Shown here one piece after another: positions 3,860-15,389 of a stretch of 35,283 nucleotides of DNA. Both the position numbers and the translations under genes were made by a program. The DNA lies in assembly GCA_903889895.1 (NCBI GenBank), contig CAISYZ010000245.1:1-35283 (forward strand), written 5' to 3'. The first letter of the stretch is position 1. Every line of letters begins with the position of its first letter. The DNA is from an uncultured Verrucomicrobia subdivision 3 bacterium (GTDB lineage Bacteria > Verrucomicrobiota > Verrucomicrobiia > Limisphaerales > UBA11358). A model generated the notes under the pieces. The model was not told the origin of the DNA. It did no database searches and worked only from the letters and a program-made list of their open reading frames with translations.

Positions 3860-4393
3860 ATGCAATTTATGGGAATGACTTACCATTTCGCTTTCAGCGC
3901 GCCGGGCATCACTCCGGCGGCGGTGCTGGAAGATTTCTTGCACAGTGTTGAGGATGACGCGAAGGCGATTGGGTTCAATCCGGTGCTGGTTCTGGACGCC
4001 TTGTTCGACACGCCGGAGCGGCAGAAGTTCGCGCGGCAACTGACGACGGGCGCACGGCTGGAAAACGACAAGCTCAAGGGCGTCGTGCTGCTGCGTGACG
4101 GACAGGTCTGGCACCATGATCCTGTGACGGGTTCGTGCCGCATCATTCCGAAGCGCGGGGTGGTGCTGGTGGTAACGGACGCGCAGAAGTGCGAGACAGT
4201 TTTCGGATTCTTCCAATTCCCGGCGACGCTGCATGATTTGAACGGCAAGGCCGTGGTCACTACGCACCAAGGCAAACGGTGGACTTTCCAGAATTTTGTG
4301 AACAGCCCTGATCCCCGGTTCCGGAAAATCATCAAGCGATTCGCCGATGCCGGTTATCTGGATGCGGAGCGTGATGAATTCAAGGCGGTCTGA
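3860..4393 (+). CDS. Conserved hypothetical protein of unknown function
   Basis: A soluble protein of up to 177 residues with no signal peptide or membrane helix. I do not recognise a named domain. Recurring features are FAFSAPGITPAAVLEDFL near the start, a DTPERQKFARQLTTG segment, GVVLVVTDAQKCETVFGFF in the middle and PDPRFRKIIKRFADAGYL near the end. It could begin at 3860, 3869 or 3875. The third gives MTYHFAF and has GGGA directly before it. Its 3' end overlaps the convergent Vsr gene by 40 bp, so it marks the downstream border of the defence operon. Whether it belongs to the defence locus or is an ordinary host gene cannot be told from sequence. Confidence 0.7.
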   Translation: MQFMGMTYHFAFSAPGITPAAVLEDFLHSVEDDAKAIGFNPVLVLDALFDTPERQKFARQLTTGARLENDKLKGVVLLRDGQVWHHDPVTGSCRIIPKRGVVLVVTDAQKCETVFGFFQFPATLHDLNGKAVVTTHQGKRWTFQNFVNSPDPRFRKIIKRFADAGYLDAERDEFKAV

Positions 4394-4782
4394 ATTTTCC
4401 GAATGCACGCCGCGCCGCGCTTGGTGAGGTCGTGTTCCCAAATCCGAATGACCCGCCAGCCGAGGTTACGCAGCTCTTGGTTAACTCGGCGGTCGCGGGC
4501 CATGTTCGCGGCGAACTTCTTTTTCCAGAATGCACGGTTGCCAACGGGAATTTTGCAGTGCTTGGGGCAGCCGTGCCAGAAACAGCCGTCAACAAAAACC
4601 GCCAATCTTGCCGGGCGGAAAATAAAATCCGGTTTTCCGAATACGGGCTGACCGCGCCGCCAGCCGATGATTCGGTGCTGGCGAAATAATTTCATCAAGG
4701 CGAGTTCCGTATCTTTGTTGCCGCTTCCGCGAATCCGGGACATGACGGCGGAGCGTTTCGCCTTGGAGAACACGTCAGCCAT
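4354..4782 (-). CDS. vsr: Very short patch repair (Vsr) DNA mismatch endonuclease
   Basis: Vsr enzymes nick DNA next to T:G mismatches left when 5-methylcytosine deaminates to thymine. They usually sit beside a cytosine-5 methyltransferase, as here, where one opens the same operon. The protein is 142 residues, normal for the family. It starts MADVFSKAKRSAVMSRIRG and carries PDFIF, with the catalytic Asp, followed by VFVDGCFWHGCPKHC, which supplies zinc-binding Cys and His. WRVIRIWEHDL near the end is also typical. The ATG at 4782 gives a standard N-terminus, and the frame is open further upstream but overlaps the AIPR gene. It is the last of six genes, 5 bp after the AIPR stop. It probably protects the host from mutation caused by the system's own methylation. 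Confidence 0.93.
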   Translation of the reverse strand: MADVFSKAKRSAVMSRIRGSGNKDTELALMKLFRQHRIIGWRRGQPVFGKPDFIFRPARLAVFVDGCFWHGCPKHCKIPVGNRAFWKKKFAANMARDRRVNQELRNLGWRVIRIWEHDLTKRGAACIRKIQTALNSSRSASR

Positions 4783-4787
4783 GCGAG

Positions 4788-6821
4788 CTAGTCCAATGCA
4801 GCGGCGAACATTTCCACCAAGGCGCGCAGTTTTTTTAATCCAAGTCCGGGGCGTGTGCGCAACTGATCCCAGGTCATTGCCGCATAACTTGAAACCAGTT
4901 CGCGCCGTTTGCTGGCAACCCAAACCTTGCCGGTGTAAGCCTCCAAGCCCTCAATGGTGCGCGCATCGTTGGTGAATTTCTTGCGAACCTTGTCCCACTC
5001 GGCGGCAAGCGCGTCTTCCTCGCAAGTGGGAGCGACGAACGGCTCATCCGCAAATTCATCCTTCCAAGCGGTCGGCAGTTCCAGTTTTTTCTTCCTAAAT
5101 TCATCCCAGCAATCCGCACGTTTAGACGCTTCGCCGACATTCCCTGATTGTGCCAGAAGATGCTCGTTGGCGGCTTTCGATACCTCTGTGATGGCATCGC
5201 AGAGCGCGGATGAAAGTTTCTGGTCGTTCCAAATAGTTTCGAGGTCAATCCTCCGCCCGGATTTTTCTGCGAGCCACGCGATTGTGTAGGCCACAATGTT
5301 GGCGCGGTAGCCGCCGAATTCCTGCGCCGAAACCAATTTTTCCGTTGTGCGAAACAAAATGGCCTTGGCGACAACATGCTTAAAATAATTAAAATCCACC
5401 ATCGGCTCGCCGTCTTCATCGTGCTTTTGAGCGAACTCAATGAAGTTTTTTTCCGCCCCCTTGCAAACCAGATGCGGCAGCCCCATCCAAGCGTGTTCAA
5501 ACTTGGCAAGGTCGGTCTTGGTGAATTTCTGATGCGGCGGATTTTCCTCCTCGAACTCGCGGCGCTTTGCCTGGGTTGGTTTGCGTGCCTTGTCATCAAG
5601 GTATGAACCACGCGCACGCTCATAATACCAATGCGTGCCGCGTTCCAATCCGCCCTGTGGCGGTGCCCAGGCATTGCGGGAAAGCTGTTCAAGCTGGTGA
5701 TGGAATTTGCCGTTGGCCGAGAAATCCGCCGTGTTCACCTTGTTCTGGCTGTTGGCGTATCTTGAAATGAGCGGGACAATCTCAATGACTTTGGCCGGGT
5801 CGGTCAACACTGTCAGTTTCATCTGCACCACCACATTCGAGACATCCACGCGCTCTTTCTTCAAAGCGTGGAAAATGCTCGCCGTGGTCTGGCCTCCGTT
5901 GACGACTTGAAAATCTTTTACGCTCTTTAGCCGGCCATGTCCGTCTTTGCCGATCTCAACGTCAACCTCCGCCGCCGTGCAACAAAGACCGTTGTTGTAT
6001 GCCAGAAACCGATGCGGCTCGTCGCGCAAGGTTTGTTGAAGCCCTTTGTTCACCTTGTTTTTGGCCTGGAGAAATGCCCGGACATTCCGCTCCAACAAGC
6101 GCTGCCCATATTCACCGTAAATTTTTGCCAGCAACGGGGCGGGCAGGAATGCGAGAAACGTCCGATACTCGGTGGTGGCGTCCTGCGTGGCTATGCAGCC
6201 GATTGGCCCGCCGTTTATCTTTGAAAAATCCAGTTCAATGATTTTGTGCTCGCCAACCTGCAACCGGCTTAACTTTTCCAAATCCCAAAGCACATACTTA
6301 ACATCCAATCCCGGCAACTGTTCTTCCTCAACATCTGCTGCGCGTGTGCCGACAACGCCGTCGGTGATGAAGAAAAGACGGACAGAAGCTAGGTTCTCCT
6401 TCGCCTCATGGATTTGTCGAGCCGCCTCAAATGCGTCGTGCGATTCTTCCAACTGCGTATAAAAGCCGTCAATGGCGCGGCGTAGAAATCCGCGCGCCAA
6501 ACTGAAAAACTTTGCCACGTCCGGTTTTGAAACGACATCCGGCTGGCCGGTTCCGTGATACAGGGTAACAAACAAATCGAGCGTCGCGCCGTCGCCGGAC
6601 AACGCCCATGCGTTAATCTTCGCGGCGGGGAAGCGCCCTCGCGATTCCCAACGAAGGCTGGGACAAATCATTTCTGCGTTGTCGGCTTCGTTATGCTCGG
6701 CGAGCCGTTCCAAGACGCATTCGGTAAATGCGTCCTCCCGCATTTGCGGCGATGCGTCGTCTGCACATTTCACCAGCACTTCTTGGTGCAGGTCTTGGGC
6801 GAATTGATCCAATTCAGGCAC
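4788..6821 (-). CDS. AIPR-family (abortive infection phage resistance) protein
   Basis: A 677-residue protein of the AIPR family, named after plasmid-borne lactococcal phage-resistance proteins and also found next to restriction and Z1 genes. Diagnostic blocks are LLERNVRAFLQ with NKVNKGLQQTL (242-265), RFLAYNNGL (271-279) and FQVVNGGQTTASIF (304-317). The biochemical role of AIPR proteins is not well established. The start is decided by overlap and ribosome site: a GTG at 6821 has AAGGA about 7 nt upstream and overlaps the preceding gene by 8 bp. A farther start at 6914 would overlap by about 100 bp. The C-terminal third (about 520-677) is charged and unassigned. Translation is probably coupled to the PD-(D/E)XK gene. 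Confidence 0.9.
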   Translation of the reverse strand: MPELDQFAQDLHQEVLVKCADDASPQMREDAFTECVLERLAEHNEADNAEMICPSLRWESRGRFPAAKINAWALSGDGATLDLFVTLYHGTGQPDVVSKPDVAKFFSLARGFLRRAIDGFYTQLEESHDAFEAARQIHEAKENLASVRLFFITDGVVGTRAADVEEEQLPGLDVKYVLWDLEKLSRLQVGEHKIIELDFSKINGGPIGCIATQDATTEYRTFLAFLPAPLLAKIYGEYGQRLLERNVRAFLQAKNKVNKGLQQTLRDEPHRFLAYNNGLCCTAAEVDVEIGKDGHGRLKSVKDFQVVNGGQTTASIFHALKKERVDVSNVVVQMKLTVLTDPAKVIEIVPLISRYANSQNKVNTADFSANGKFHHQLEQLSRNAWAPPQGGLERGTHWYYERARGSYLDDKARKPTQAKRREFEEENPPHQKFTKTDLAKFEHAWMGLPHLVCKGAEKNFIEFAQKHDEDGEPMVDFNYFKHVVAKAILFRTTEKLVSAQEFGGYRANIVAYTIAWLAEKSGRRIDLETIWNDQKLSSALCDAITEVSKAANEHLLAQSGNVGEASKRADCWDEFRKKKLELPTAWKDEFADEPFVAPTCEEDALAAEWDKVRKKFTNDARTIEGLEAYTGKVWVASKRRELVSSYAAMTWDQLRTRPGLGLKKLRALVEMFAAALD

Positions 6822-7842
6822 GGTTTTTCCTTTTGAAATTGGGCTTCGGGCTGGCGGCGACAGTGGTTTCAACCACTTTGGGCTGAACTCTGAACGGCTC
6901 GCACGCGGCCACACTCAACGCATAGTTGGCATCGCCAACGCCCGGCGGCATATCGGCTTCCACCAGGCTTGGAAACTTTTTGCCGACTCTGAAAAATCCG
7001 ACCGCGCGCACGGTATAACCGCGATCCGCGTAACGCGCTGCGTGTGCGTCGTGGTAGCCGATGGCGAGCAATTCGTCCTCAAATTGCTCCAGCGCCGCCG
7101 CGTCTGACCCCAGCTTGTTGCGCAACGAACCAACCATGTCCGGCAAAATTTCCCCGCTGCCGTCTCGAACATCGAGCGCGATGACATTCAGAAATAGCGC
7201 ATCCCAGGCGCTGTCGTCCAGTTGACGCTCGCTGGTGATCCGCACCACTTGCGGTTGTTTTGCCAATGTGGTTTTCACTTCCACCGCGCAACTTTCAAAT
7301 TGAAAATCCTGGTGCGCCCGTTCTCCGCCTTTCCACGAGTGGACTGCGGCTGCGCCGATGGTTGAAAGCAGATGCTCGCGGAGAAAATAAAGTTCCCCCC
7401 ACAAGCCGCGCTGCGATTCCTCGCTCAAGCCCTCGAACGAGGCGGAAAGAAATTTCTGCCAGCGCGCAAGCTGGCCGAGAAATGCGCGAGCTTGGGCGGC
7501 AGAATCGCCGGCATCGGACACCCGGCGAACCAAATCTTCCGCGAGTGCCGTGAACACGTCGGCGAAACGCACTTCTTTCAACGCCACGCCGAAATGAGCG
7601 CTGCCGCCAATTGAGACGGCCAACGGCTCAAGGCCTTTGCAGCGCGGCCAGTGACGACGCGTTGGCACGGACGCCGAAGGCAACCGCAGCAAAACCGCGC
7701 GACGCTTGGTCGCAAGTTCCAAGCCGACAAACAGCGGGCAACCCGCAGCGGGTTGTGTCAGACGAATCAGCCATCCGCTCGCGCCGGTCTTGCCGGCGGC
7801 GGCGTCTGATTCAAGTGCCTTCCAAAAATCTTCAATCTGCAT
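6814..7842 (-). CDS. PD-(D/E)XK nuclease-like protein (DUF4420-like)
   Basis: A 342-residue protein with the features of the putative PD-(D/E)XK family that accompanies Z1 ATPases. They are RGLWGELYFL (Glu150), a tryptophan-glycine block (SWKGG), then HQDFQF (Asp179) and AVEVKTT (Glu188, Lys190). The Asp-X8-Glu-X-Lys spacing fits a restriction-endonuclease active site, so it is the best candidate for the operon's DNA-cutting subunit. A helical N-terminal region (1-130) and a basic tail (PKPNFKRKNRA) may make contacts with partners or DNA. Its ATG overlaps the end of the Z1 gene by 11 bp, and its stop overlaps the AIPR start by 8 bp. Cleavage activity is inferred from the motif. Confidence 0.88.
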   Translation of the reverse strand: MQIEDFWKALESDAAAGKTGASGWLIRLTQPAAGCPLFVGLELATKRRAVLLRLPSASVPTRRHWPRCKGLEPLAVSIGGSAHFGVALKEVRFADVFTALAEDLVRRVSDAGDSAAQARAFLGQLARWQKFLSASFEGLSEESQRGLWGELYFLREHLLSTIGAAAVHSWKGGERAHQDFQFESCAVEVKTTLAKQPQVVRITSERQLDDSAWDALFLNVIALDVRDGSGEILPDMVGSLRNKLGSDAAALEQFEDELLAIGYHDAHAARYADRGYTVRAVGFFRVGKKFPSLVEADMPPGVGDANYALSVAACEPFRVQPKVVETTVAASPKPNFKRKNRA

Positions 7843-10735
7843 AATCTTCGTCGTGGAATGTGGCTTGCCACACTTTATTGACTTTGTAGTCCACTGCGCG
7901 AGCCGTATGGCTTGACGGAAAACTGAAAGCCAATCCCATGAAGGGCGGTTCGCTTACCGGCCAACGATTTTCCGTTGGCACAATGGGGTAGATCAAAAGC
8001 AGTCCGTGGGTTCTTGGGCGAAGATGGCGGGCGACTTCGCCGTTAATGCGGGCGCGTTTCGTTTCTCCGTCAGTGGGTGGCTTGCGTAAAACTGTCAATC
8101 GCTCGGCAGCAGTGGCGAGCGTTGTTTTTTCCACGCAACATTGCTGCAACAAGGCTTCCTCTGGCGGCGTAAATAATGGGCCGCCGTTTTCCACGGCGCG
8201 TTTTGTAAGCAATTCCGCGAGCACCAACTCATCCAGGGTGATTTCTGCCAAGTCGAGCGCTTGGTGTGTCGGACTCTGAATGTTTGCATTGCGTGTCGCG
8301 TAAAGAGAAGGTGTTCCGCCCTCCGGCCAGGAACCTTCTTCGGGTTTGCGCTCCGCCATGCCGGGCTTGCAACCAGAAATGGGAAATTTGCCCGCTTTGC
8401 CGTCGGTGTTCACCAATGCCACCGTCCAGCTTGTTAATTCTCCCGCTCCAGCCTGACGGCGGATGAATTCCATCAGCTCCGGCTTTTGCAAACGCCACCC
8501 TTCCGAGGCAACGGAAAAATCGTGAAGCAATCCGTCGAGCAACTGCGCGGGCTTCACATTTTTCCAAAGCCAGGCAGTGGGAGTTTCCTTGGCCGCGCCA
8601 TGTCCTCCCAGCCCGTCGAGAAAACGGCCAACTATGTCGGCATTGTCGCGGACAACTTTTGATGCGGTGATAAAATGCGCGGTCTGGACAAGCTGACCAG
8701 CGTATGAAAGCCGCTGGGTCTGCGCGTGCGACATTTTATTCATGGCGGTTACTAGCAGCCCGCCCGGATGCTCGCGCACTCGCAACCCGTAACGGCGCGG
8801 TGTCAGCCCGGCCGCTTTCATCCGATCAAATTCGCGGCGCAACTCCACTTCAGCCAAAGCAATGTGCCGATACCACCGGCGTAAATCCTCCGTGGTGAAC
8901 AAACGGCACAAATCCAGATAGCCGGGACGATAGCCAAACCACCGCCCCATTTGCATCAGCGTGTCATACATCTGTGAAGCGCGGAGAAAGTAACTGACCG
9001 AAAGCCCCTCAAGCGTCAAACCACGGGAAAGTTTGTCGCCGCCGACAGCCACGACATTGAAACCCTGGCGATGTGCCACATAATCCAGCGCGTCGGTAGC
9101 GTGCCCATTGATTTCTTTAACTTCAATCCGCCCCGCCGCTTCGGGCAATTCAGCGGCAACTTGCGCCCATGAAACTTCGGGCAAATTTTCATCCGACGAC
9201 ATTCCCCGAATTTGGGCGCTCGTCGGTTCAAATTCTTCCTGCCAGAGTTTTTTCAAATCTGAAAGAAGCGTCTGACGCCGTTCCCCCTCGCCGATGGCAA
9301 GCCGCCGCCGAATGGAGTCCACCTGTTGTTGGATAAGCTGCGCGACTTGGCTTTGCACGTCCACGAATCGCGTGACGTGAACCAGCATGGAATTGTGAAC
9401 TTCCGTCTGGCCGCGTGCGCGGCGCGCGGCGCAAACCAACACAAAACAGTGCAACGCGCGACTCAAGGAGTCAGGCAATTCGTGAACAGGAAGATCTTTT
9501 TTGTGCTTGGGTATGAAAACATCTTCATGGTCATCCACCACACGAAACAGGGGCAGTTCCTGCTTTGTTTCGATTCCAGAATCAGGATCACCATCAAGGC
9601 CGAACACGCGCGCCGGACTGACATAATTTGACGGCGGTGAAACATTGAGGATGAAACTCCGTGGGAAAAGATCTTCGCCGTGCTTTGGCGTTTCGGCATC
9701 TGGATTGATGAAGATGTTTGCAAACGGCGTCGCGGTGTAGCCGACATAGGCGCTTTTCTCGAAAGCATCGAGCAATTCACGGATTCGTCCGTTGATGGCT
9801 GTTACATCATCGTCATCAGCCTTTTTGCCTTTACGATCCTTGGTGTTAATCGAAGCGTTGTCCGCTTCATCATCAATCACCAGCAGCGGCACGCCGCGAA
9901 TAATTTTGGCCTTCTGACCAGGAATTTCTTCACCCCGAACATGGAGCACCCATTTAAGCAAATTTTTCAGGACGCTCCCGTTTTTCTTAACAACGAGAAT
10001 GACCGGATGACCGCCGATGTCCACACTCGTATCAGCCTTGGGCGCACGAAAGTCGCCGTCATCAAGACTGCTGGTTAGCGTTGTAACCTGCAATAATTGC
10101 CCGAACAATTTGCCAACTCCTATCAGGCTGTTTGCGTGATCAAGATTTCGGTCTTTTTGGCTGTCGCGGCCAAGCACGCCTTCGTCCAGCCGGTATTGGG
10201 TTTGGCTACGGAGGTTATTGTGCATCCCCGCCAGAATCACAATGAGGCGATAGCCCGAATCAAGCGCTTTGCAGATTAGGCCGCAATAGTTGGCGGTTTT
10301 TCCGGATTGCACACTTCCGACCACCATGCCGCGACAATCCCACGGCGGGTTGCGTTCGGGGTCTTCCAGCTTGCCGAGAATTTCGTCCGTGAGTTTTCCA
10401 AGCGAGCCGACCACCGGCTCCGGCAGTTTTTTCTCCTGTTCAAGAAAGGTTTTGTAGCGACTCCAAAATTTCCATTCAATACTACCACGGCGGGCCGGAA
10501 GCCACTCAATGTGGTCGGCTGGGTCGTCCATCAGGGTTGCGTCAGGGACATACACGTTTGCCTCGTGCATGAGTTGAGCGACGAGAGCATCGGCATCAAC
10601 TTCACCCATTCCCGCTGCGCGCGTGGTTTGAACCGCAAGGGCAACTTGGGCGCGAATGACTTCCTGGGTTCGCACGGGCTGGAGATTTAGCAGTGTCACC
10701 GCAATCGAACGGGCATGGTTAAAAGCATCGCTCAT
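7832..10735 (-). CDS. Z1-domain superfamily-2-like ATPase
   Basis: A 967-residue ATPase whose conserved parts are a Walker A loop GSVQSGKT (140-147), a Walker B/DEAD box LLVIDDEAD (284-292), a motif III-like YVGYTATPFAN (330-340), GGDKLSRGLTLEGL (565-578) and QMGRWFGYR (595-603), which supplies the arginine of motif VI. That order defines the Z1 family, which is related to superfamily-2 helicases and known from predicted restriction systems. It probably uses ATP to move along or remodel DNA so the nuclease can act. The last 300 residues are unassigned. It starts at an ATGA overlap with the preceding ATPase gene and its end overlaps the nuclease gene by 11 bp. Confidence 0.93.
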   Translation of the reverse strand: MSDAFNHARSIAVTLLNLQPVRTQEVIRAQVALAVQTTRAAGMGEVDADALVAQLMHEANVYVPDATLMDDPADHIEWLPARRGSIEWKFWSRYKTFLEQEKKLPEPVVGSLGKLTDEILGKLEDPERNPPWDCRGMVVGSVQSGKTANYCGLICKALDSGYRLIVILAGMHNNLRSQTQYRLDEGVLGRDSQKDRNLDHANSLIGVGKLFGQLLQVTTLTSSLDDGDFRAPKADTSVDIGGHPVILVVKKNGSVLKNLLKWVLHVRGEEIPGQKAKIIRGVPLLVIDDEADNASINTKDRKGKKADDDDVTAINGRIRELLDAFEKSAYVGYTATPFANIFINPDAETPKHGEDLFPRSFILNVSPPSNYVSPARVFGLDGDPDSGIETKQELPLFRVVDDHEDVFIPKHKKDLPVHELPDSLSRALHCFVLVCAARRARGQTEVHNSMLVHVTRFVDVQSQVAQLIQQQVDSIRRRLAIGEGERRQTLLSDLKKLWQEEFEPTSAQIRGMSSDENLPEVSWAQVAAELPEAAGRIEVKEINGHATDALDYVAHRQGFNVVAVGGDKLSRGLTLEGLSVSYFLRASQMYDTLMQMGRWFGYRPGYLDLCRLFTTEDLRRWYRHIALAEVELRREFDRMKAAGLTPRRYGLRVREHPGGLLVTAMNKMSHAQTQRLSYAGQLVQTAHFITASKVVRDNADIVGRFLDGLGGHGAAKETPTAWLWKNVKPAQLLDGLLHDFSVASEGWRLQKPELMEFIRRQAGAGELTSWTVALVNTDGKAGKFPISGCKPGMAERKPEEGSWPEGGTPSLYATRNANIQSPTHQALDLAEITLDELVLAELLTKRAVENGGPLFTPPEEALLQQCCVEKTTLATAAERLTVLRKPPTDGETKRARINGEVARHLRPRTHGLLLIYPIVPTENRWPVSEPPFMGLAFSFPSSHTARAVDYKVNKVWQATFHDEDYAD

Positions 10736-12246
10736 TTTTCATCCTCCTCGGCTATGGCTTGCAGCAGTTGTGGAAAACGCGGGAACGGTTCAAAATGTGC
10801 CAGCCGTAAAAGGGCGTCTTTTCGGGAAAGCCCGCTGACGCGAAGCGAAGCGAAAACCTGCCGCATGACTTCGAGGATTTCGGCTTCTTTTGCACCTTCA
10901 AACGGGCCGATTGTCTGGTCGGGCTTCTCGCGATCCGTAATGGTGATAAGTGGAACTGGAATGGTTTCTTCGATCAACCGCAGCATGGCGCTAAATTTCG
11001 GCACGTCGGCGCACGCGGCACGAACTTGTTTCACAAGCGGGTGTTCGCGATTGACGCGATAAAACACCTGATTGTGTTTTGCGGTCTGTTCCCAAAGAAA
11101 AACCCGTTCCTGGCCGTCTTTTGGAATAAGTTTCGCGCCCCGATGCGAATAAATTCTTTTCGCCACGCTACGCGTGCTCTCGCCGATACGCACCAGTTCG
11201 CGGCGCAATTTTTCAGGCGGTCTTGCGCGGGATTTGGTGACATCAATTTCCCATTCGTGATCCAATGCGTTGGGAAGATCAACCCGGATGCGCGCAAGTT
11301 TGTAATGCTCTTCTTGCCGCCAACCTTTGATGCCAAGCCAGTCGCCGGGAACGAGCAACCGGCAGTTGCGGTAAATGTAAAATCCCTGATGCGCGTTCCA
11401 TCCGCGCAATCCGGCGGCTGACCGATGCGATTCGGCGTCCAGCTTCGACAAATGCGGGAGAACAAACGGCTCAACTTCGATAATGTGTCCCTGGAAACGA
11501 AGTTTTTCCGCCGTAAGCCGCTGCGTGGCGGGTTCGTCCGCAAGAAATGGGTCCCAAGGCGTAATCGGCTTGCCGTTAAGGGAAAATTTGACCGCACTTC
11601 TGCCAGTCATCAGACGGTGAAAGACGGCTGCAAAATGATCCCCGACGTGTTCTGCGCGTCTCAAAAATGCGTCTTCGTCGGCGTCGTTCTCCGTGGCCGT
11701 TTCAGAGGTCAGCCGATCAAGTTTTTCCCAGACGACAACTGTTCCCTGTTTCGGGTCGGCGAGTTTTTCTGCCAACTTCGCCGCGAGTGGGGATGGCGTT
11801 CGTAGGAGTTGCCACTTGTCGGTGTCCGCAATGTGATCAAGATCCCAACAACGAATCAGTATTTCTCCCCGGCGCTGGCGCGTGAACACTGTTACGCGGC
11901 GACATTGCGAAAATGAAGCCGTTTTGAGTCCCAAGCCAAAGCGTCCAAAATCTCCTGGGTCTCGAAGTTCGCGCGGATTGCGACTACCAAGTCGCATTGC
12001 GTTGATAAGAGTCGGTTCGTCCATCCCGTCGCCATCATCGGCCAAGGCGATGGCAGAATTTTCACCGGCCCAGTGAAAATGAATGGTTAAGTGCCGTGAG
12101 TTGTGAAAAAGGCTGTTGTCGGCAAGGTCTGCCAAGGCCGTTGCGAGATCATACCCAAACGCGCGAAGTGATTCGACCATTGCCGCCGCTCGCGGTTCGA
12201 CTATGTCGCGCAATGCTTCCGCATTTTGGCTGGCTCCCTTTTTCAC
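10732..12246 (-). CDS. MORC/MutL-like GHKL ATPase
   Basis: A 504-residue protein with the Bergerat (GHKL) ATP-binding fold near its N-terminus: the N box in LADLADNSLFH (Asn44), the G1 box LADDGDGMD (69-77) and the G2 box GRFGLGLKTASFSQC (101-115). The spacing and the phenylalanine-glycine-leucine-glycine G2 box match the prokaryotic MORC-like and MutL-like group rather than histidine kinases. Such ATPases act as ATP-gated DNA clamps. A predicted S5-like middle part would follow (about 240-380), containing PNALDHEWEIDVTKSRARPPEKL, where MORC and MutL relatives keep a conserved lysine. The gene begins 7 bp after the methyltransferase stop and ends in an ATGA overlap with the Z1 gene. Confidence 0.9.
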   Translation of the reverse strand: MKKGASQNAEALRDIVEPRAAAMVESLRAFGYDLATALADLADNSLFHNSRHLTIHFHWAGENSAIALADDGDGMDEPTLINAMRLGSRNPRELRDPGDFGRFGLGLKTASFSQCRRVTVFTRQRRGEILIRCWDLDHIADTDKWQLLRTPSPLAAKLAEKLADPKQGTVVVWEKLDRLTSETATENDADEDAFLRRAEHVGDHFAAVFHRLMTGRSAVKFSLNGKPITPWDPFLADEPATQRLTAEKLRFQGHIIEVEPFVLPHLSKLDAESHRSAAGLRGWNAHQGFYIYRNCRLLVPGDWLGIKGWRQEEHYKLARIRVDLPNALDHEWEIDVTKSRARPPEKLRRELVRIGESTRSVAKRIYSHRGAKLIPKDGQERVFLWEQTAKHNQVFYRVNREHPLVKQVRAACADVPKFSAMLRLIEETIPVPLITITDREKPDQTIGPFEGAKEAEILEVMRQVFASLRVSGLSRKDALLRLAHFEPFPRFPQLLQAIAEEDEK

Positions 12247-12253
12247 AGGCCAT

Positions 12254-13867
12254 TTATGCCAGCACTTTTTCCCGCTCGTGTCTCACTTCCTCCATCAAGT
12301 CCGGGTTGCGATAGCACATTCCAGCCGTCACCGCCTCGCTGCAATAAAACTCGTCGTCTTTTAATTCGCCCGCTTCATAACGACGCCATGCTTCCGCTGC
12401 AATCGGTGCGAGAATCACCGGCCAGCCGCTATCTACGAAGTATGGCGCGAGCAAGCGCGGTTCAATTTTGCGGATTTCAGGAAAATCTTCTGCGGCGTTG
12501 GAAATTTCCGTGCCGTGTTCCAAGGCGCTGTCGGGATGAAGGCCGGGATAAAGGAATCCGACAGAAAACCAGCCACGTTTGAATTCAGCTAGGGGGAATT
12601 GGCGAAGCATCTTGCTCTCTCCGGCGCGCACAAGCTCAAGTAGCCACGCGACGGCCTCCTGTTGGTCGGACGGCAGTGGTGATAATCCGAATCGAACGCC
12701 TTTTTTATTTTTCATGGTTTTCTCCAAATATGATTTTGCAGCCAGTCCGATGGCTTCCGAAACAAGCGGCGGAACGGCATTGCCGATGACGCGGAATTGA
12801 TGGGTGCGAGCCACCGGAAATTGAAACCAATCGGGAAAACTCTGCACGCGCGCCGCCTCGCGCGGCGTGAGCGAGCGGTTTTGTGTTGGATGAATGAACA
12901 TCAGCCCGTCCTTGCTCAAGTGGGCGACGATGGTGGAGCAAGCCTCGTTGCGATGCTGCCGGGTGTAACGGTCTTTGAAAGATTCGCGGTCGTAGGGAAA
13001 CTCGAATTCCTCGCCACGCTTGATTGCCGCCGCGCAATGCTCGCCCTCGCGCAATTTGGCAAAGTCGCGCAAGTCGCGTTCGCTGTGGGGGCGGGCACGA
13101 TGAGCCGTCAATTTTTGCGCAAGCTGCACTTCGAGAGTTTCGTAGAGATAGCCACGGCTGTATTTCGCAACGTGGCTTTTGCGTTTCTCCATGTCGTAAT
13201 CAGCTTCTTCGTCGCCACCACCTGCCCGGACAGTTGGCAGATCGCAAATGGCTTCGCCGAGCGTCGGCCATTCCACGGCGCGGGGTGCGGGTTTCAACTC
13301 CCCTGGAAAGTAATCAGGTAAATCAAGTCGAGTGCCAATGATGAGTTGGCGCTGTCGTTTCTGCGGCACGCCCAGGTCAAATGCCTTTTCAACCTGCGGA
13401 TGAACACGGTAGCCCAACGCTCGCGCCTCTTTCTGAACGCGTGTAAAGTATTTTCCACCCGCCGCCGACTTGATGCCTAAAACATTTTCCATTACGAACA
13501 ATTTCGGCTGAAAATGACCGACGTAACGCAAAAATTCCTGGTAAAGATGCCGACGTGAGTCTTCAACCATGCGCGGCCCGTTGTTCGCGCCGTCGCGCTG
13601 ACGCACGGTTGAATATCCCTGACACGGTGGGCCGCCGACAATGACATCAACCACCTCGTCGCCGATGAGCGCCGCCATTTTATCGGGTGTGAATTGAGTT
13701 AAATCTTTTTCAAGGGCGTGGCGGATTTCAGGAAAGTTTTTTCTGAAAACGGTGACGGCTTCGGGGTTGAAATCAACCGCCGCCAAGCAACGGAAGCCTG
13801 CGCGCTCCATGCCGAGGCTGAATCCACCGCAGCCGCAAAAAAGGTCTATGAACGCCGGTTTTTTCAT
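12254..13867 (-). CDS. DNA cytosine-5 methyltransferase with C-terminal extension
   Basis: This enzyme transfers methyl from S-adenosylmethionine to carbon 5 of cytosine. All main motifs are present: I (AFIDLFCGCGGFSLGM, 5-20), IV (GGPPCQGYS, catalytic Cys82), VI (MENV, 126-129), VIII (PQKRQRQLIIG, 168-178), IX (RSLTPREAARVQSFPDWF) and X (RVIGNAVPPLV, 359-369). The sequence it recognises cannot be read off. A normal enzyme would end near residue 382. Here about 150 more residues follow without a break, containing KRGWFSVGFLYPGL and DSGWPVILAPIAAEAWRRYEAGEL. I do not recognise that part. First gene of the six-gene operon, with a weak promoter candidate upstream. It may protect host DNA or mark DNA for the other proteins. 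Confidence 0.93.
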   Translation of the reverse strand: MKKPAFIDLFCGCGGFSLGMERAGFRCLAAVDFNPEAVTVFRKNFPEIRHALEKDLTQFTPDKMAALIGDEVVDVIVGGPPCQGYSTVRQRDGANNGPRMVEDSRRHLYQEFLRYVGHFQPKLFVMENVLGIKSAAGGKYFTRVQKEARALGYRVHPQVEKAFDLGVPQKRQRQLIIGTRLDLPDYFPGELKPAPRAVEWPTLGEAICDLPTVRAGGGDEEADYDMEKRKSHVAKYSRGYLYETLEVQLAQKLTAHRARPHSERDLRDFAKLREGEHCAAAIKRGEEFEFPYDRESFKDRYTRQHRNEACSTIVAHLSKDGLMFIHPTQNRSLTPREAARVQSFPDWFQFPVARTHQFRVIGNAVPPLVSEAIGLAAKSYLEKTMKNKKGVRFGLSPLPSDQQEAVAWLLELVRAGESKMLRQFPLAEFKRGWFSVGFLYPGLHPDSALEHGTEISNAAEDFPEIRKIEPRLLAPYFVDSGWPVILAPIAAEAWRRYEAGELKDDEFYCSEAVTAGMCYRNPDLMEEVRHEREKVLA

Positions 13868-14284: not shown

Positions 14285-14360
14285 ACAGATGAAACACAGA
14301 TAATTAATTAAAAGCGGAATGTTTTTGTTTTCATCTGTGTTCAATCTGTGTTTCATCTGT
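14285..14360. repeat. Perfect 17-bp inverted repeat in an intergenic element
   Basis: The arm acagatgaaacacagat (14285-14301) is exactly complementary to atctgtgtttcatctgt (14344-14360), with an AT-rich spacer of 42 bp. Both arms are built from the word ACACAGAT/ATCTGTGT. Further copies of this word lie at 27305-27334 and 27441-27460, so it belongs to a dispersed repeat family. It fills the gap between the comM stub and the heptose kinase gene, and its right end runs into the kinase leader. Confidence 0.85.
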
Positions 14361-14372
14361 GGCTAAAATAAA

Positions 14373-15389
14373 ATGAGTGCAAAAAAATTATCCGCCTCCC
14401 GTGCCCGGCAGATTTTGTCCGCCGCGCAAAAGGCCCGCGTGCTCGTCGTTGGCGACGTGATGCTGGACCAGTTCATCTGGGGTGGCGTGTCGCGCATTTC
14501 GCCGGAGGCACCGGTGCCGGTGGTGGATTTTCAACGCGAGAGCTTCATGCCCGGCGGCGCGGCGAACGTCGCGCGCAATCTGGTTTCGCTCGCCACCCCG
14601 GCGGAACTTTTCGGCGCGATTGGTAAAGACGAAGCAGCAGGCAAGCTGCTAAAACTTTTAGAAGAACAAAAAATCGGCTGTGCCGGCTTGGTCAAATCAT
14701 CAGCGCGACACACGAGCATCAAGACGCGCATCGTGGCGCACCAGCAGCAGGTCGTCCGCGTGGACCGCGAAACGCGCGGTCATCTGGACGACAAGCTGAC
14801 CGCGGCGCTGCTGGCGGAAATCAAAAAACAAATCACCGAGGCGGATGCGGTCATCGTCGGCGACTACGGCAAGGGCGTAGTCACGCAACCATTGCTGGAC
14901 GGCATCAAGAAGCTTTGCCGCGAGCGCGGCGTTTGGTTGAGCCTCGATCCGAAGCCGGTGCATCATCTGAACTTGAACGGGCTTTCGCTCATCACGCCAA
15001 ACCGCAAGGAGGCGTTTGAACTCGCCGATTTGCCGGACGACACGAAGAACGCGAATCCGTTTGCCGACAAAAATCTCATGCTCGTCGCGGAACGGCTGCT
15101 GAAAGAATTGAATCCCGCGCTGCTGCTGATCACGCTCGGCGAACTCGGCATGTTGCTCTGTCAGCGTGGTCAGAAGCCGTTTCACATCCCGACGGTGGCG
15201 CAGGAAGTTTTCGATGTTTCCGGCGCGGGCGACACGGTCATCGCGAGCTTCACGCTGGCGATTGCGGCTGGGGCTTCGCCGATTGAAGCGGCGATTCTAT
15301 CGAATCACGCCGCCGGCATTGTTGTCGGCAAAGTCGGCACGGCGGTGACCTCGCCGGAGGAACTGGTGAAGAGTTTTGAGCAACGTTAA
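14373..15389 (+). CDS. hldA: D-glycero-beta-D-manno-heptose-7-phosphate kinase (RfaE domain I)
   Basis: This is a PfkB/ribokinase-family sugar kinase of 338 residues that most resembles the kinase half of HldE/RfaE. That enzyme phosphorylates heptose 7-phosphate at C1 for the ADP-heptose used in lipopolysaccharide. Visible signatures are VLVVGDVMLDQFIWGGVSRI (23-42), SPEAPVPV, the glycine pair of MPGGAANVARNL (59-70), GDYGKGVV (163-170), LITPNRKEA (206-214) and DVSGAGDTVIA (281-291) with catalytic Asp287. No cytidylyltransferase domain follows, so it is a stand-alone kinase, and the nucleotidyltransferase must be elsewhere. The ATG has no clear ribosome site and its leader is part of the dispersed ACACAGAT repeat. 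Confidence 0.9.
   Translation: MSAKKLSASRARQILSAAQKARVLVVGDVMLDQFIWGGVSRISPEAPVPVVDFQRESFMPGGAANVARNLVSLATPAELFGAIGKDEAAGKLLKLLEEQKIGCAGLVKSSARHTSIKTRIVAHQQQVVRVDRETRGHLDDKLTAALLAEIKKQITEADAVIVGDYGKGVVTQPLLDGIKKLCRERGVWLSLDPKPVHHLNLNGLSLITPNRKEAFELADLPDDTKNANPFADKNLMLVAERLLKELNPALLLITLGELGMLLCQRGQKPFHIPTVAQEVFDVSGAGDTVIASFTLAIAAGASPIEAAILSNHAAGIVVGKVGTAVTSPEELVKSFEQR

Follow-up and report, generated by a model that had tools for sequence, protein, structure and literature searches.

Organization of the operon

The window analysed here, a stretch of 35,283 nucleotides from an uncultured Verrucomicrobia subdivision 3 bacterium, carries on its minus strand an operon of six genes, encoding a C5-cytosine DNA methyltransferase (methylase), homologues of MzaB, MzaC, MzaD and MzaE (B, C, D and E, together B–E) and a Vsr mismatch endonuclease. 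From its relatives, B–E is inherited as a unit, and the methylase is exchanged separately from it. An initial annotation had already proposed a tightly packed six-gene operon with intact catalytic motifs, and this is confirmed; the B–E genes overlap, and the methylase lies 7 bp ahead of MzaB. The features are as follows.

12254..13867, minus strand: C5-cytosine DNA methyltransferase, 537 amino acids (aa), PPCQ and ENV motifs intact
10732..12246, minus strand: MzaB homologue, prokaryotic MORC ATPase (GHKL and S5), 504 aa, GTG start
11353..11385, minus strand: MORC-family S5 motif GFYIYRNCRLL, MzaB residues 288–298
7832..10735, minus strand: MzaC position in the B-C-D-E order, between the MzaB and MzaD genes
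8762..9469, minus strand: stretch inside the 7832..10735 gene (range from Pfam), with conserved G565, G566, R571–T574, Q595, G597 and R598
6814..7842, minus strand: MzaD homologue, PD-(D/E)XK nuclease, DUF4420, 342 aa
7273..7308, minus strand: MzaD nuclease active-site stretch D179...E188-x-K190
4788..6821, minus strand: MzaE homologue, AIPR protein, 677 aa from the GTG at 6821; the open reading frame (ORF) extends to 6914
6252..6821, minus strand: AIPR N-terminal domain, MzaE residues 1–190, putative restriction-endonuclease-like fold
4354..4782, minus strand: Vsr mismatch endonuclease, 142 aa

The methylase scores 199.1 bits with the curated dcm model TIGR00675 (cut-off 100.65) and is thus a C5 DNA methyltransferase; its closest solved relative by sequence is 3g7u (residues 6–373), its PCQ/ENV catalytic motifs are invariant across 27 sequences, and it is the only C5 methylase found in its genome. 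Vsr likewise exceeds its curated cut-off (TIGR00632, 112.5 bits against 97.85). The four proteins between them are homologous to MzaB–E over most of their length (PADLOC: MzaB 1.6e-111, MzaC 3.8e-182, MzaD 8.1e-29, MzaE 7.8e-92). The mzaABCDE system (Gao et al. 2020, known here through PMC9523054 and the PADLOC and NCBIfam models) has the same four homologues in the same order; the window differs from it in having a C5 methylase ahead of MzaB instead of the sigma gene MzaA, and in B–E scores below the NCBIfam equivalog cut-offs (bits/cut-off: NF041932 for B 449/850, C 754/1500, NF041934 for D 177/420, NF041935 for E 417/1050). None of the matches to the MzaA model NF041931 reaches the cut-off or lies on the contig of the window, and the best one examined is, by eye, an RpoD-like sigma factor.

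Across 24 sequences, conservation at the active sites of B, C and D is at least 95%. In C, the residues conserved in 8762..9469 may be motifs V and VI of the SF2 consensus. B matches Pfam HATPase_c_3 with conserved ATP motifs, and its S5 motif, of which G288, F289, Y290, Y292, R293 and R296 reach the same level of conservation, agrees by eye with the GhXhhpXXRhl signature (PMC2292703), so that both the GHKL motifs and S5 of a prokaryotic MORC protein are present. D (PF14390, 243 bits) keeps D179, E188, K190 and E150 at that level, which fits the E-D-ExK description in the same paper. E matches AIPR (1.9e-100) and AIPR_N (3.1e-32) and has at least 7,996 homologues; no conserved ExK was seen in its N-terminal domain, and hhalign aligns the VNGGQT of the AIPR core with the DGQHR of DGQHR/DndB-like proteins at only 1–4% probability. 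In proteins of L087 (793–3108) and L088 (787–3126), a restriction-endonuclease-like stretch (D...ECK by eye) is joined to a DGQHR domain, an architecture that parallels AIPR.

Related loci

Relatives were collected from genome contigs (4 loci, found by MzaB), from the window's phylum (B in 26 of 288 genomes, 14 of them only at E 1e-5 or weaker and left out; C in 17 of 387; 11 regions taken from the B search and 6 from the C search) and from plasmids (49 records for B, 21 for D; 24 regions fetched). Annotation with purpose-built profiles gave 25 loci with complete B-C-D-E, window included; the methylase and Vsr counts below cover the stretch of DNA taken per locus. Cultured, non-pathogenic carriers are Rhizobium etli CFN 42 (p42f, L064) and Sinorhizobium meliloti GR4 (L068).

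The order B-C-D-E on one strand and a C5 methylase are found in all 25, and Vsr in 20, adjoining the methylase in 14 of these 20. Since the C5 methylase background is ~72 match segments in 59 related genomes, fewer than 0.01 would be expected per locus by chance. The methylase is within ~310 bp of the B–E block in 21 loci, but its placement varies: upstream and co-directional in 11 (within ~100 bp) and in one more at 4.7 kb, downstream and co-directional in 6, on the opposite strand within ~310 bp in 4, and 1.4–2.6 kb away in the 3 loci (L052, L053 and L065) where MzaA replaces it at the front. The two sigma loci that are annotated have a separate restriction endonuclease gene near the methylase.

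Six loci have a B-like protein without C, D or E. On plasmid L066 the whole operon is present in many reading-frame pieces, as if decaying. A second GHKL protein adjoins the operon in L050 (2790–4928) and L051 (2117–4321); both recall the HK-like elements of PMC8011034, and that of L050 weakly matches the BbrUII/HgiDII restriction model and sensor kinases.

Methylase exchange against a constant B–E

The distances of B, C, D and E agree with one another (Mantel r 0.91–0.96), and those of the methylase agree far less (0.52–0.62), although still above random (Mantel p 0.0005). The B–E tree joins the window with L009 and L010, its nearest B–E relatives, at a Shimodaira–Hasegawa-like approximate likelihood-ratio support (SH-aLRT) of 100 in a quick search; B–E identity to the window is 80–91% over these two loci and 85–91% for the L009 type. 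Their intact methylases, however, sit elsewhere in the methylase tree than that of the window, and the methylase data reject a clade of the three (approximately unbiased test, p 2.1e-8, with the long branch of L052 and a short search as caveats). In the methylase recognition region, only 16 of 107 aligned residues (15%) are identical between window and L009, with 61 gapped columns. Nowhere in B, C, D or E does identity between the two collapse, save in N-terminal stretches with differing ORF starts. The genome assembly of L009 has no window-type methylase at any other place. In L010, a window-type methylase lies upstream of B–E in three pieces, in three frames and with one stop, and an intact L009-type methylase lies behind E; the pieces may be a true relic or an assembly error. 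L045 has a methylase 59% identical to that of the window, yet a D only 30% identical. The initial interpretation of the six genes as one concerted system is partly supported.

Since B–E shows no change to match that of the methylase, either the methylase would carry the specificity or methylation may not be read at all. We favour the former with moderate confidence, that is, a predicted Mza-type anti-phage operon in which the methylase would be the specificity subunit, or reader, of the B–E machine.

Several observations weigh against this reading. Once overall distance is corrected for, segments of D and E slightly track the methylase lineage (partial r up to 0.35; under permutation, 95% of the maxima lie below 0.24), a pattern compatible with a contact or with D or E sharing in the reading; most of these segments follow the catalytic part of the methylase as well as its recognition part. 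The window and L009 methylases share, by eye, NH/AH..R.H...DL and F.DR...Q patterns, and the exchanged enzymes could recognise the same or overlapping sites despite their divergent recognition regions. That L009 has no second, window-type methylase elsewhere depends on a draft assembly. Among 11 loci with C but without complete B–E, a methylase was found in 6 and none in 5. The C-terminal domain of the methylase gives no proof of docking to B–E, for it is present as well in the 12.4 kb contig L047, from which C, D and E are absent. Finally, the validated Mza system has a sigma factor and is not known to include a methylase, so B–E may work without any methyl mark.

A site common to both methylase types is what a classic multi-subunit type II-like restriction-modification system would need, with D or the fast C-terminal part of C reading the site of the methylase. 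A site-reading subunit matched to the methylase is expected to change with it unless both methylases read one site; the divergence of the recognition region without local collapse in B–E, and the L045 pair of a similar methylase with a dissimilar D, make this quite improbable.

Alternatively, B–E could be a methylation-independent Mza defence, and methylase and Vsr a separate epigenetic or solitary modification cassette settling nearby. The methylase swap without comparable change in B–E would suit such independent neighbours, as would the varying methylase position and strand, the front place taken by MzaA in sigma-type loci, and the pairing of Vsr with the methylase. However, the presence of a methylase in every complete locus against the chance expectation, its proximity in 21 of 25 (7 bp in the window) and its above-random tracking of B–E argue otherwise, and we regard this explanation as unlikely.

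The C-terminal extension of the methylase

12257..12766, minus strand: C-terminal methylase extension, residues 368–537, small helical domain, motif FLYPGLHPDxALEHG...SGWP...EAWRR

A tail of at least 149 aa follows GNAVPP in the 120 most similar homologues listed. The last 150 residues of the extension match nothing in Pfam (E ⩽ 1) or NCBIfam (E ⩽ 0.1), and all 170 residues nothing in PHROGs or PADLOC (E ⩽ 0.1); the copy that stands alone in L009 matches only Pfam SelR, below threshold (E 0.044). An AlphaFold model from 8 sequences is helical, with a mean predicted local distance difference test score of 80, and has no Foldseek match in the PDB at E ⩽ 0.001. In L009, L010 and L047, the domain stands as a small ORF of its own next to other methylases; L047 lacks C, D and E, so the domain seems tied to methylases and not to B–E.

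Proposed mechanism and relation to known systems

From family knowledge, 5-methylcytosine (m5C) methylation by the methylase, ATP hydrolysis by B and C, cleavage by D and T:G repair by Vsr are expected. In the favoured reading, the operon would serve defence: the methylase would act as reader, the MORC protein B as a clamp, C as a motor by analogy to CglI, D as the cutting nuclease, and the AIPR protein E as a sensor or scaffold. DNA looping by MORC has been proposed (Iyer et al. 2008, PMC2292703), and CglI translocation is itself a proposal in the passages cited here (PMC5737866). E could also point to abortive infection, in which phage events rather than unmethylated DNA trigger B–E, which then stops the cell: the AIPR protein matches PADLOC AbiU (4e-24) and a PHROG named Abi alpha-like abortive infection mechanism (5e-34). 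These names are inherited annotation, not tests; moreover, the set of nuclease and motor is that of restriction systems, and no toxin domain appears in the Pfam matches of the six proteins, and we regard this explanation, too, as quite improbable.

A broader and more tentative possibility, on balance doubtful, is that Mza-type systems take an exchangeable DNA reader at their first position. The reader would be a C5 methylase in some systems, often accompanied by the C-terminal domain in fused form or as a small protein of its own, and the sigma factor MzaA in others, and would guide one specificity-free MORC/SF2/nuclease/AIPR machine to DNA. If so, a new reader would bring a new target with the machine untouched.

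Anti-phage defence of this kind has been predicted before, and the operon is a further member. It belongs to the third MORC operon type of Iyer, Abhiman and Aravind (2008, PMC2292703), a study that the initial annotation had cited, and is just one more example of that type. The 'Type II' putative defence system of Miller, Stern and Burstein (2022, PMC9523054) is among the closest known systems; Vsr is unnamed in the text of that paper, and the section relevant here describes neither methylase exchange nor a C-terminal methylase domain. Section 11 of that paper prints DUF4220, where our Pfam match gives DUF4420 (PF14390). In the CglI, NgoAVII and BceSIV restriction-modification systems, the nuclease is of phospholipase D type with a B3 reader domain, unlike that of the window, and the passages cited here do not describe MORC, AIPR or DUF4420 (PMC4267653, PMC5737866). 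None of the six proteins has a PglZ or BrxC domain, as in BREX, among its Pfam matches at E ⩽ 0.001. The mark of BREX is N6-methyladenine, not m5C. The likeness to it is one of working only, a methylase being required as sequence reader of a multi-subunit, ATP-using defence (in the part of PMC11842806 cited here).

No paper working out self/non-self discrimination in Mza-type systems was found in the literature searched, which left most subscription journals outside. That close relatives swap the DNA-marking gene and keep four attack genes hints at a way in which such systems could discriminate own from foreign DNA, and window-type and L009-type operons offer a natural direct test of methylase specificity. 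If the methylase does carry it, recognition would be a portable part of modular restriction systems, with the sigma branch as a second kind of reader. The exchange is also relevant to the question why MORC ATPases of bacteria, which are related to the eukaryotic chromatin MORCs, adjoin DNA methylases.

Genomic setting

14285..14370, no strand: right edge of a genus-variable segment, where synteny with same-genus genomes ends (blastn)

Twelve same-genus regions were compared, from 37 other genomes having the pfkB-like gene. All 12 are collinear by blastn from 14285–14388 rightwards, including that gene; none holds any of the six operon families (E ⩽ 1e-4), and the operon side of the edge has no blastn match, with seven regions reaching ~15 kb past the pfkB-like gene and five only 0.2–8.5 kb before their contigs end. 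A Geobacteraceae genome has an MzaB 79% identical to that of the window and a Planctomycetota genome one 78% identical, and on this ground the operon looks horizontally mobile. A short stretch at the synteny break (14333–14369) has matches in L099 and L103 that lie outside the collinear block, pointing to a dispersed repeat close to where the variable segment ends.

On the far side of the operon, 97–2940 encodes a large protein that combines Ig-like repeats with an Rv2525c-like glycoside hydrolase domain; in the 39 further same-genus genomes searched, its best match extends over 249 residues at 40%. Where scanned, 14373–35167 is ordinary chromosome, with pfkB-family kinase, panB-like, response-regulator, hybrid histidine kinase and 2-oxoacid dehydrogenase genes and subunits of a proton-pumping NADH dehydrogenase.
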